A program made the translations under genes and the position numbers. From Bacteriovorax sp. (lineage in GTDB: Bacteria > Bdellovibrionota > Bacteriovoracia > Bacteriovoracales > Bacteriovoracaceae), in NCBI GenBank assembly GCA_014378525.1, contig JACMNL010000046.1, forward strand, positions 1 to 60,717: a stretch of DNA of 60,717 nucleotides, given 5' to 3'. Below are positions 55,174 through 60,717 of the stretch, one piece after another. Below the pieces are notes generated by a model. That model was not told the DNA's origin. It did not search any database and saw only the letters and a list, made by a program, of their open reading frames with translations. How positions within the stretch are numbered: the first letter of the stretch is position 1; the number at the start of each line of letters is the position of its first letter.

Positions 55174-56196
55174 ATGAAAAATCTTATTACACTTGAACGC
55201 TTTACAGAACTTACAAAAAAATTCGCTACTCTTACTCCAATCGTAGTTGTCGGAGATGTGGGAATTGATAAATACACTTTTGGTGAAGTTAAAAGAATTT
55301 CTCCCGAAGCTCCGGTTCCTGTTTTAGAGGTTACCAAAGAATGGCTGAAGCTTGGACTTGCTGCCAACATCTCACACAATTTAAAAACTCTCGGAGTTGA
55401 ATCAACATTATGTGGTGTCGTAGGTGAAGACAACAACGCCAACGTCTTTGACACATTATTGGAAGACGAAAAACTAAACACGTGGGGAATCGTCAGAGCA
55501 CCGGGACGTCCGACAATCTTTAAAGAAAGAGTGACCACTAACACTCAACAAATCTGTCGTATCGATTACGAATCTTCGGAAGATATCGATGCTGCTACAG
55601 AAAATAAATTAATCTCACGCTTCGATGAGTTTGCAAAAACTCACGGTGCTGTGATTATCGAAGATTATGCAAAAGGTTCATTAACAAAAAATGTTATTGC
55701 AAATCTCATTTCAAAATTTATGGCCGCTGGAAAACTTGTAGCAGTCGACCCAGGACGATCAACTCCGCCTCTTTTTTACAAAGGTGCCACTCTTCTAAAA
55801 CCAAATTTAGCAGAAGCACGCGCGATGGTTGAGAGCTTAGGCTACAAAGAAAAGAAACTTGAAAACATGGCAAAGATCCTGGTTGAAAAACTTGATCTTC
55901 AAATGCTGGTCATCACTTTAGGTGCTGAAGGTATGGCCTTATTAGACGTTAAAAAGAATTCAGAACTCACAATTATCCCGACTGTCGCCAACGAAGTCTT
56001 CGATGTTTCCGGAGCAGGTGATACCGCTATCAGCGCACTCACATCATCTTTACTTGCCGGAGCAACTCTCGAAGAAGCTGCCTGGATTTCCAACTGCGCC
56101 TCTGGTGTTGTCGTTGCTAAAAAAGGCACGGCCACTGTGGATCTTGCAGAACTTCACCAGTTCTACAATCAGCTCGTCACAAAAATGAAGCATTAG
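55174..56196 (+). CDS. D-glycero-beta-D-manno-heptose-7-phosphate kinase (HldE kinase domain)
   Basis: 340 residues, PfkB fold. VVVGDVGIDKYTFGEVKRISPEAPVPVLEV is the RfaE/HldE domain I hallmark; the ATP-anion hole is VSGAGDTAISAL with catalytic Asp283. The C-terminal cytidylyltransferase-like (adenylyl) domain of bifunctional HldE is absent, so a separate HldC-type partner must be encoded elsewhere. Makes heptose-1,7-bisphosphate for ADP-heptose. Directly follows the heptosyltransferase gene. Followed at once by the promoter of the structured RNA. Confidence 0.93.
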   Translation: MKNLITLERFTELTKKFATLTPIVVVGDVGIDKYTFGEVKRISPEAPVPVLEVTKEWLKLGLAANISHNLKTLGVESTLCGVVGEDNNANVFDTLLEDEKLNTWGIVRAPGRPTIFKERVTTNTQQICRIDYESSEDIDAATENKLISRFDEFAKTHGAVIIEDYAKGSLTKNVIANLISKFMAAGKLVAVDPGRSTPPLFYKGATLLKPNLAEARAMVESLGYKEKKLENMAKILVEKLDLQMLVITLGAEGMALLDVKKNSELTIIPTVANEVFDVSGAGDTAISALTSSLLAGATLEEAAWISNCASGVVVAKKGTATVDLAELHQFYNQLVTKMKH

Positions 56197-56216: not shown

Positions 56217-56245
56217 TTGACATTTTTGGTGCGTTGCGCTAAATT
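56217..56245 (+). promoter_or_regulatory. strong sigma-70 promoter of the structured RNA
   Basis: TTGACA, exactly 17 nt, TAAATT. The -35 is a perfect consensus and the -10 matches four of six. The spacer ends in TTGCGC. Transcription should begin near 56252. It is the best promoter I see in the window except possibly that of the rRNA operon. Confidence 0.88.
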
Positions 56246-56251
56246 TGACCT

Positions 56252-56686
56252 GTCTCTCGGCTTCACAGCTTGGAGATAAACCCGTGGAAAAGGGCGATGA
56301 TTTTCGAAAGGGGATCAGAGCAAAGCTTAAGACCTAAGGGACGCTTCAAGGTGTTCTATCGGTTTATTAGGTTGCCGAAACGGTAAAGGACCACTTTCTT
56401 CGTTAGACGAACGGGTCGGGAATCATGTGGCGAGCATGCTTTCTGGAAGAAGGGTAGAGTTCTTGGGAGGAGTTTTTGGATCCGTAACGTAGCTCTACGA
56501 TTTCAGATTTTGCACCGACATTCATTTAGAAGAATTGTGCAGACACCTCGGGAGGACTTGTACATAAAGCAGAGGCCTAGTGACCTGCCTTAAAGGGAAC
56601 ACATTAAAATTGATTCATTCAAATTTAGAATTTAAGAAAATTTAAATATAGCGAAAAGGTCGGATGTGTAATCCGACCTTTTTTTT
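56252..56686 (+). ncRNA. standalone structured RNA, merRNA-like with a class I c-di-GMP aptamer-like domain
   Basis: About 430 nt with no credible open frame, delimited by a near-consensus promoter and an intrinsic terminator (56658-56686). An internal segment reads like the GEMM-I (cyclic-di-GMP-I) aptamer. Stem GATTTTC/GGGGATC is closed by a GAAA tetraloop (56306-56309). The strand AGAGCAAAGC follows, then CCTAAG (56333-56338) facing TATCGG (56357-56362), which resembles the 11-nt GAAA receptor. AGGTTGCCGA (56369-56378) matches the aptamer's 3' strand. The remaining ~300 nt contain several more hairpins (GTAGAG/CTCTAC, TTGCAC/GTGCAG). Bdellovibrio merRNA is a massively expressed attack-phase RNA with a c-di-GMP riboswitch-like domain; homology is inferred. 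It does not match RNase P RNA, tmRNA or SRP RNA signatures. Family confidence is moderate, RNA-gene confidence high. Confidence 0.7.
56658..56686 (+). terminator. intrinsic terminator of the structured RNA
   Basis: Perfect 8-bp stem GGTCGGAT / ATCCGACC, loop GTGTA, then eight T. It separates the RNA from pheS, which starts 92 nt further on. Confidence 0.93.
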
Positions 56687-56730
56687 GTATTTTTTAGTCC
56701 CACATCGCCTTGCCAAATTCACGGCGTCAT

Positions 56731-56764
56731 GAAAATATTTTGAACTTAAAAATCCAATATTTTC
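56731..56764. repeat. perfect 9-bp inverted repeat upstream of pheS
   Basis: GAAAATATT and AATATTTTC separated by 16 nt, ending 13 nt before the pheS ATG. It may be an operator or a hairpin that covers the ribosome site; a candidate promoter (TTGCCA, 18 nt, AATATT) overlaps the left arm. Confidence 0.55.
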
Positions 56765-56777
56765 AAAGGCCCCACGA

Positions 56778-57845
56778 ATGAGTCACGATCTAGAAAAAGT
56801 AAAACAAGAATTTCTTGTTAAACTTAACAGCTTAAATAAAGAAGCCGATATTTTAAATCTCAAATCAGAATACGTTGGTAAAACCGGCGTCGTCTCTGAA
56901 ATGCTGAAGTCTTTAAAAGACATGAACCCCGACGAGAGAAAAGCTTTCGGTCCGAAAGCAAACGAGCTCAAAGATTTCATCAACGAGCAATCAGGCCTTC
57001 AACTTTCAAAAATCGAAGTCGAAGAAATCAATAAAAAATTAGCTCAAGACAGAATCGATATCAGTCTTACTGAAAACATTCAGGTAAAAACAATTAAGAG
57101 CGGCGGCTTCCACCCTCGCACAATTATCCAGCAGGAAATTGAAGATATTTTTCTTTCAATGGGTTTCGATGTTTTAGATGGCCCGCATATCGAAGACGAA
57201 TTCCACAACTTCGAAGCACTAAACATTCCAGCTGATCACCCTGCAAGAGACATGCAGGATACTTTCTGGTTCCACGATCCGCAAAACACTCCTGCAGATA
57301 CAAAAAAATATTTATTAAGAACACACACAAGTAATATTCAGGTACGAGGAATGCTCTCTCGTAAACCTCCTTTCAGATTCATCGCTCCAGGAGTTGTATT
57401 CCGCTCAGAAAGAACAGACGCTTCTCACGAAATGGTTTTCACTCAGCTTGAAGGTATGATGGTTGGAAAAGATATTTCAGTCGCCAACCTGATCTACTTC
57501 ATGAAAACAATCCTGAAAGAAATTTTTAAACGCGACGTTGAAGTTCGCTTACGCCCGGGATTTTTCCCGTTCGTAGAGCCTGGCTTCGAGTTAGATATCA
57601 GATGCCTTATCTGCGACGGTAAAGGCTGCTCAGTTTGTAAACAAGTCGGATGGGTAGAACTCCTTCCATGCGGAATGATTCATCCAAACGTTCTGAAAGC
57701 TGGCGGCATTGATCCGACAGAATATAACGGTTTCGCTTTCGGCCTCGGCCTTGATCGTCTCGTTATGATGAGATACGGAATCGACGATATCCGCCACCTG
57801 CAAAGTGGTGACCTTCGTTTCAACTCACAATTCAAATTGTTTTAA
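56778..57845 (+). CDS. pheS: phenylalanyl-tRNA synthetase alpha subunit
   Basis: 355 residues. N-terminal coiled coil (1-90), then the class II catalytic core: GGFHPRTIIQQEIEDIFLSMGFDV, LLRTHTSNIQVRGM, FRSERTDASHEMVFTQLEGMMV (motif 2), and GFAFGLGLDRLVMMRYGIDDIRHL (motif 3). Charges tRNA-Phe as an alpha2beta2 enzyme with PheT. ATG start after AAAGGCC; pheT starts 21 nt downstream. Confidence 0.97.
   Translation: MSHDLEKVKQEFLVKLNSLNKEADILNLKSEYVGKTGVVSEMLKSLKDMNPDERKAFGPKANELKDFINEQSGLQLSKIEVEEINKKLAQDRIDISLTENIQVKTIKSGGFHPRTIIQQEIEDIFLSMGFDVLDGPHIEDEFHNFEALNIPADHPARDMQDTFWFHDPQNTPADTKKYLLRTHTSNIQVRGMLSRKPPFRFIAPGVVFRSERTDASHEMVFTQLEGMMVGKDISVANLIYFMKTILKEIFKRDVEVRLRPGFFPFVEPGFELDIRCLICDGKGCSVCKQVGWVELLPCGMIHPNVLKAGGIDPTEYNGFAFGLGLDRLVMMRYGIDDIRHLQSGDLRFNSQFKLF

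Positions 57846-60644: not shown

Positions 60645-60717
<73 letters not shown>

Follow-up and report, generated by a model that had tools for sequence, protein, structure and literature searches.

The gap between a kinase gene and pheS in a Bacteriovorax sp. contig (JACMNL010000046.1; the analyzed stretch of 60,717 nt is called the window below) holds a predicted RNA gene that is real on comparative evidence. Its RNA begins with a divergent class I c-di-GMP (GEMM-I) aptamer, continues with a covarying hairpin domain, and carries a conserved Shine-Dalgarno (SD) sequence followed by an open reading frame (ORF) of exactly three sense codons. Our best reading of the whole, which we hold with moderate confidence, is that of a merRNA-like RNA that would bind c-di-GMP and would also load a ribosome on the three-codon ORF. 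Free-standing GEMM-I RNAs as a kind are already known from merRNA; the predicted layout with the aptamer at the 5′ end, together with the three-codon ORF, is new.

An RNA gene with its own promoter and terminator

The RNA gene lies between the kinase gene (positions 55174 to 56196), which we, like the preliminary description, take to be rfaE-like, and pheS (56778 to 57845). The window comes from a genus of Bacteriovoracaceae; the nearest named loci of its pheS protein are in metagenome-assembled genomes of that family (95 and 91% identity). The consensus promoter and the terminator that the preliminary description had reported are both present as it described them (Table 1), and in an alignment the intergenic regions of the genus also show a TTGAC- −35 element and a TATTCT-like −10 element. 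Together, promoter and terminator frame ~430 structured nt in the window, with the transcription start placed from promoter spacing alone. The gap had further been described as having no reading frame. This holds insofar as no ORF of at least 60 amino acids was found in it, but the SD and the three-codon ORF at 56465 to 56487 had been missed. A search for tRNA and tmRNA found neither. In the window and across the genus, the RNA is intergenic, has promoter and terminator sequences of its own, and has no classical gene downstream within the predicted transcript. From these sequences, we infer that the window RNA is independently transcribed.

Table 1. Features of the RNA gene and its surroundings (window coordinates)
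Feature	Position	Strand	Basis or remark
Sigma-70-like promoter TTGACA-N17-TAAATT	56217..56245	+	10/12 consensus positions
5′ hairpin directly after the inferred transcription start	56252..56277	+	Fold; sequence differs across the genus
Divergent class I c-di-GMP (GEMM-I) aptamer	56277..56386	+	RF01051 core 56283-56379
P1, 5′ strand CCGU	56282..56285	+	Also complementary to ACGGGU further 3′
Equivalents of G20, A47, C92	56293, 56322, 56375	+	R1 alignment
GAAA tetraloop of the aptamer	56306-56309	+	Aptamer alignment
P1, 3′ strand ACGG	56380..56383	+	98.1% of cells paired, nearly invariant
Long hairpin domain (helices 5-8), with ACGGGU and a GUG-UGGCGAG-CAU/CAC-like hairpin	56385..56464	+	15/30 pairs changed on both sides
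SD-like GGGAGGA	56465..56471	+	Conserved in homologues
Micro-ORF TTG GAT CCG TAA (putative fMet-Asp-Pro-stop)	56476..56487	+	34/46 homologues three-codon
Hairpin holding a second GGGAGGA (UGUGCAG...CCUCGGGAGG...CUUGUACA)	56536..56564	+	Helix 9: 5/10 pairs changed on both sides
Intrinsic terminator, 13-bp stem and T run	56653..56683	+	Helix 11: 4/9 pairs changed on both sides
Promoter-like element TTGCCA...GAAAAWATTTTG, 3′ of the terminator, conserved	56707..56745	+	Genus alignment; presumably of pheS (function inferred)

BLASTN against the genus's 13 other genomes gave matches to the RNA in 12 (70 to 93% identity); the one without a match (G010) is 84% complete. At all 12 loci, the RNA is located downstream of the kinase gene, ~600 nt away in two of them (G007 and G011) and close in the rest; pheS comes next in 10, and the contig end is reached first in 2. 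Across the 47 loci recovered with the covariance model described below, a kinase gene upstream and pheS downstream were found at 32, the kinase gene only at 10, neither at 4, and another arrangement at 1. Seven of the 10 kinase-only loci, which have no pheS match, offer more than 1.3 kb of downstream sequence, and the other 3 are at contig ends.

This conserved proximity is what an ordinary cis-acting riboswitch controlling pheS would show, and one locus fits such a riboswitch particularly well: in G095, a member of another genus, pheS starts 187 nt past the aptamer, too close for the complete RNA plus its terminator to fit in between. We nevertheless consider control of pheS very improbable. 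In the genus, a covarying terminator closes the RNA ahead of pheS, and a conserved promoter-like element stands 3′ of that terminator, so that, on this sequence evidence, no downstream gene shares the transcript. Because the promoter-like TTGCCA follows the terminator and seven relatives keep the RNA without a pheS match despite their >1.3 kb of downstream sequence, the window RNA does not look like a pheS leader, G095 being the exception. The same two results sustain the earlier proposal that this is a free-standing aptamer RNA.

Two other Rfam sRNA models matched the AT-rich 3′ part of the RNA with higher scores than the aptamer model but below their own cut-offs, and we rejected both as apparent matches to composition or to a terminator. 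MicC scored 43.9 bits (cut-off, 90) over this part, the terminator, and sequence beyond it, and AaHKsRNA41 scored 25.5 bits (cut-off, 97) over the same part on the other strand. Elsewhere in the window, the last 73 bases (60645 to 60717) are the start of a 16S rRNA gene.

A divergent GEMM-I aptamer at the 5′ end

The landmarks of a class I c-di-GMP aptamer are located where the preliminary description had put them, and the Rfam model RF01051 aligns end to end with positions 56283 to 56379. The window's score of 24.1 bits is below the curated cut-off of 35, which only 1 of the 14 genomes of the genus passes (G007). However, four homologues exceed it (G007, 38.5 bits; G019, 36.5 bits; G309, 51.9 bits; G310, 49.9 bits); G063, another genome with window-type loci, is below it. 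We therefore used a family-specific covariance model, R1, trained on 27 sequences. In 368 genomes of the phylum, R1 matched 51 genomes with E up to 0.01; at E < 1e−8 it retained 46 genomes (44 of the window's family plus G309 and G310 of another family) with 47 loci, of which 27 had served as training and 20, including those of G309 and G310, were new. All four relatives that pass RF01051 were recovered by R1. Because G309, G310, and G019 pass RF01051, the window family grades continuously into canonical GEMM-I, and the window aptamer is almost certainly a GEMM-I homologue.

With canonical RF01051 aptamers, the window aptamer shares the three helices, the GAAA tetraloop, the GCAAAG strand, the UUGCCGAA 3′ strand, and the equivalents of G20, A47, and C92. 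It differs in having GGC-GAU and GA-GC junctions in place of GGC-AAA and GAC-GC, in its score below the cut-off, in a receptor strand that varies among relatives, and in that no regulated gene was found for it. The Vc2 contact numbering was placed onto model positions on our own assumption. None of the 47 aligned homologues has a substitution at the equivalents of G20, A47, or C92, in an alignment that is fitted to R1, a model that itself favors loci carrying these bases. In Vc2, the three bases are ligand contacts (PMC9049102). The pair adjacent to the pocket changes in a compensatory manner (CG in 28, UA in 15, and UG in 4 of the 47 loci). The GAAA tetraloop is also kept, its first base being G and its third base A in 46 of 47 loci each.

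Substitution of A for G20 is a hallmark of cGAMP-binding GEMM-Ib aptamers, and the G kept at this position therefore favors c-di-GMP over cGAMP. GEMM-Ib aptamers have been described, without mention of this base in the accessible text (PMC6456294). The window's genome contains two GGDEF matches, which makes c-di-GMP plausible in this organism. The window aptamer probably binds c-di-GMP.

In the aptamer, two-sided changes affect 4 pairs of helix 2, 2 of helix 3, and 2 of helix 4; P1 says nothing about covariation because it is nearly invariant. Two differences from the canonical aptamer that had been pointed out earlier fared less well in the comparison. The extra C in the receptor occurs in some sequences but is not general, as several relatives read CUAAG...UAUGG. 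Conservation is lacking for the additional CCC...GGG hairpin placed 5′ of the GAAA stem, since 8 of 13 genus sequences have UGG or AGG for GGG; a more plausible pairing for its 5′ strand is P1, in which CCGU faces ACGG.

Covarying structure beyond the aptamer

The consensus structure was derived with RNAalifold from a 13-sequence genus alignment, with P1 added and doubtful helices removed by hand. It comprises 83 pairs in 11 helices that span the aptamer, the 300-nt domain, and the terminator; 94.9% of the cells pair, and 36 of the 83 pairs are changed on both sides, a covariation that none of 500 shuffles equaled. When partners were slid by 1 to 3 columns, pairing fell to 36 to 50%, a control that flatters the structure because the structure was derived from the same alignment. 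Folded as a single sequence, the window RNA stands out from shuffled sequences only to a moderate degree (z = −2.3), and 2 of 100 of these fold as well. The ~300 nt past the aptamer, which had been described as a further structured domain, are thus conserved and contain covarying helices, and the covarying pairs that the preliminary description had looked to homologues for do exist.

The 3′ domain contains a second GGGAGGA in a hairpin that covaries in the genus, after which no consistent ORF was found. A CsrA-type sponge, prompted by the GGA motifs, is offered here as an idea only.

We do not claim a long-range switch pairing between ACCCGU and ACGGGU. The two are complementary in most RNAs (score of 668 versus at most 601.5 in 300 shuffles), but 283 of 500 partner swaps score as well, and there is no significant covariation; with the 17 variants alone, 133 of 2,000 swaps were as good, and a wider first version of the test was also negative.

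A conserved ORF of three codons

About 80 nt past the aptamer, downstream of the covarying hairpin domain, the window reads GGGAGGA GTTT TTG GAT CCG TAA. In 34 of 46 RNAs, the reading frame that opens behind an SD-like site has exactly three sense codons, the third being proline in 29; one RNA whose contig ends 54 nt past the aptamer (G075) was excluded from the counts. The commonest form is Met-Gly/Asp-Pro-stop, with Met-Asp-Pro in the window and mostly Met-Gly-Pro in other genera. The per-RNA count tried up to three SD-like sites in each RNA, and the control one each; counted per SD-like site, 34 of 53 are followed by three codons, as are 26 of 44 when the first site alone is considered. As a control, 384 SD-like sites at other positions of these loci were scored on both strands, a large share of them in coding sequence; 7 were followed by three codons, never with proline (0/384). 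When the 30 nt behind the SD were shuffled with dinucleotides preserved, three-codon rates were 0 to 0.055. By genus, the three-codon ORF is present in 15 of 22 in the window's family (binomial P ~ 1e−14 with three tries allowed, a value that is optimistic because it ignores shared ancestry; with the second G063 locus taken separately, the count is 16 of 23).

Starts are TTG in 30 and ATG in 4 RNAs, UUG being a weak start codon. Codon 2 is GGN, GAT, GAC, or GAA; codon 3 is CCG, CCA, CCC, or CCT in the 29 RNAs with proline and otherwise ATT, AAT, or AAG; and stops are TAA in 20, TAG in 13, and TGA in 1. At the third position of codon 2 and likewise of codon 3, every base occurs among the 21 distinct 12-mers, and the versions encoding LGI, MGN, and LGK have lost CC and kept the frame. 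Among the 12 of 46 RNAs without a three-codon ORF, two have two codons (G310 and G104) and one has a start followed by a stop (G034); other or no frames are found in G086, G029, G031, G091, G092, G106, G150, G095, and G309, with G091 and G092, which have no SD-like site in the searched stretch, scored as misses.

The site might conceivably be incidental or structural, in an RNA that acts in trans as a free-standing c-di-GMP sensor through base pairing or protein binding. Within the micro-ORF, GG...CC could form pairs with the SD (in the RNAalifold structure, GGA is joined to UCC), and a conserved and covarying 300-nt domain would suit such a sensor. Yet the LGI, MGN, and LGK variants, which lack CC, still keep start and stop, and exchanges of TTG and ATG, of TAA, TAG, and TGA, and of third-position bases fit an ORF; action in trans with a meaningless ORF is therefore improbable. 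The SD spacing, the start, the few codons, the stop, and conservation beyond chance are those of a translated minigene, and we consider it likely that ribosomes use the micro-ORF.

Known bacterial minigenes, among them also lambda bar, are situated in leaders of real genes or are toxic, whereas the window ORF lies in a free-standing aptamer RNA and belongs to a type ending in Gly/Asp-Pro-stop. It shares with the mini-ORFs of the LEE1, LEE4, and axe-txe leaders the arrangement of an SD and then a few codons (PMC8708949).

merRNA carries a short ORF in a different layout

Across the phylum, RF01051 exceeds its cut-off in 135 of 368 genomes. In G154, which we take to be Bdellovibrio bacteriovorus HD100, the match is at 1073868-1073951 (minus strand; 60.8 bits). 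It falls at nt 235 to 318 of the published merRNA, a 445-nt RNA at 1,073,741-1,074,185 (minus strand) that was published as noncoding (PMC3627812). The same 2013 study reported by far the highest attack-phase expression for merRNA among the eight sRNAs tabulated, proposed that it serves as a c-di-GMP reservoir, and saw no conservation beyond the Bdellovibrio lineage at that time; according to its accessible text, an ORF was looked for downstream of the riboswitch (Karunker et al., PMC3627812).

Upstream of the aptamer, at nt 65 to 103 of HD100 merRNA (locus L142), AAGGAGG ACACGG ATG opens MRTHEHHDDELK-stop, an ORF of 12 codons located 170 to 132 nt before the aptamer. Relatives (loci L143-L274) have merRNA-type ORF peptides such as MKNRIHDHHDEPPK, VRKRIFSHNDKSPK, and ..WRLDPPPK. 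Hits outside the window's family and family f24 came from 130 genomes; we drew on 112 of them for merRNA ORFs and left out of the count G260 (22 nt upstream) and 24 genomes of f8, f12, and f26-f29. An upstream ORF with the C-terminal motif was found in 55 of 87 genomes from six families (f6, 38/57; f11, 10/14; f19, 7/8; f17, 0/5; f22, 0/2; f18, 0/1), under a motif filter picked after inspecting the data. A relaxed search added like peptides ending in Pro-Lys or Pro-Glu in G158, G181, G190, G200, G208, and G255, the SD being unclear in G158 and G200.

Because the motif filter was chosen post hoc, a comparison of synonymous and nonsynonymous changes is the less biased coding evidence. Among 17 genomes of the genus Bdellovibrio with 14-codon ORFs (16 distinct), picked by regular expression and compared at codons 2 to 9 alone, we counted 291 synonymous versus 178 nonsynonymous pairwise differences; the other frames gave 30/441 and 33/410. 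The merRNA of the B. bacteriovorus type, too, carries a conserved predicted short ORF, in which change is mostly synonymous. No report of an ORF in merRNA was found in the accessible text of the open-license PMC literature.

The window RNA had been likened to merRNA, and the likeness holds in kind: both are free-standing, intergenic RNAs of similar length with one class I aptamer, a short ORF, and no classical gene after the aptamer. The layout differs. The aptamer occupies nt 235 to 318 in merRNA and the 5′ end in the window RNA; the ORF has 12 codons upstream of the aptamer in the former and 3 codons downstream of it in the latter; and the aptamer scores are 60.8 and 24.1 bits, respectively. 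The merRNA order of short ORF, aptamer, and 3′ part is therefore not that of the window RNA.

In Bdellovibrio-type and other loci, GGAGG also occurs close to the aptamer, in the 70 nt upstream of it, in 78 of 111 loci. In HD100, this is AAGGAGGU, which has no start codon near it and is close to a CU-rich stretch overlapping the 5′ end of the aptamer.

Proposed working of the RNA

We propose that the RNA would bind c-di-GMP through its 5′ divergent class I aptamer and would load a ribosome at the SD downstream of the covarying hairpin domain. The ribosome would make the tripeptide Met-Asp-Pro (Met-Gly-Pro mostly in other genera) and, because the last codon is proline, would probably terminate slowly at Pro-stop and be held there briefly. 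The holding of ribosomes, or else the stability of the RNA itself, could thereby be coupled to c-di-GMP status, and the RNA would be other than a passive aptamer.

Published data bear on slow termination from both sides. In its favor, a survey of C termini found DP-stop and GP-stop to be depleted among bacterial proteins and ssrA tagging to be induced most strongly by DP and PP; against it, the survey also found an enrichment of C-terminal proline in 12 phyla, and DP caused no loss of expression in its reporter library (PMC7246954). Transcripts can be stabilized by mini-ORFs with strong SDs, which in excess can inhibit translation (PMC8708949).

That c-di-GMP controls ribosome use of the micro-ORF is a tentative idea. 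Simple folding gives no sign of ligand gating, because forcing P1 leaves accessibility of the SD unchanged (mean unpaired fraction of 0.307 with P1 forced, 0.311 free, and 0.322 blocked, in 44 of 47 RNAs). More doubtful still is a further proposal, that these are c-di-GMP-controlled ribosome traps: abundant free-standing RNAs that would hold ribosomes in the predator's nongrowing phase, with c-di-GMP deciding between hold and release. The trapping ORFs would be the minimal ORF with its Gly/Asp-Pro-stop, or the merRNA ORFs of 9 to 18 codons, which usually end in Pro-Lys/Glu-stop.

The preliminary description had considered a plain aptamer serving as a c-di-GMP sink. One possible form of this explanation, which we regard as rather unlikely, is a sink or reservoir as proposed for merRNA in which a ribosome on the micro-ORF merely protects the RNA from nucleases and so keeps it abundant. 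It draws on the top attack-phase expression of HD100 merRNA among the tabulated sRNAs (PMC3627812), on a six-codon mini-ORF with a strong SD that shields an Escherichia coli transcript from RNase E (PMC8708949), and on the aptamer core that is intact in 47 of 47 homologues. By itself, however, it leaves unexplained why conservation extends past the SD to an ORF length of exactly three codons and to the Gly/Asp-Pro-stop ending, and it does not account for the covarying 3′ domain. The conserved micro-ORF and the covarying 3′ domain, which a mere sink would not be expected to have, both speak against a plain aptamer without an ORF. These observations suggest that RNAs of this type are more than passive sponges for c-di-GMP.

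Across the phylum, GEMM-I RNAs that look free-standing thus occur in no fewer than two layouts, each of the two studied having a conserved, putatively translated tiny reading frame. The function of merRNA becomes testable through the question of whether c-di-GMP alters how ribosomes occupy these ORFs. A positive answer would mean that a riboswitch aptamer acts on the ribosome pool or on the fate of its own RNA and not on a gene behind it; a negative one would leave the micro-ORF as a conserved ORF of unusual shortness within a structured RNA.

Other aptamer loci

In families f8, f12, f26, and f27 (L112-L114, L133, L155, L174, and L175), 7 of 10 loci inspected have a G-rich/C-rich hairpin of the AAAGGGGGGUCCC...GGACCCCCUC type behind the aptamer, and a gene that we take to be queE-like lies downstream at 7 of the 10. 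Within the window's own family, G093 has a class I c-di-GMP aptamer of a different kind (L159, 1521 to 1592; 45 bits, over the RF01051 cut-off), which R1 did not find. With a terminator-like CCGGCUUUUUUU and then a gene immediately 3′ of it, this aptamer looks like an ordinary cis riboswitch.
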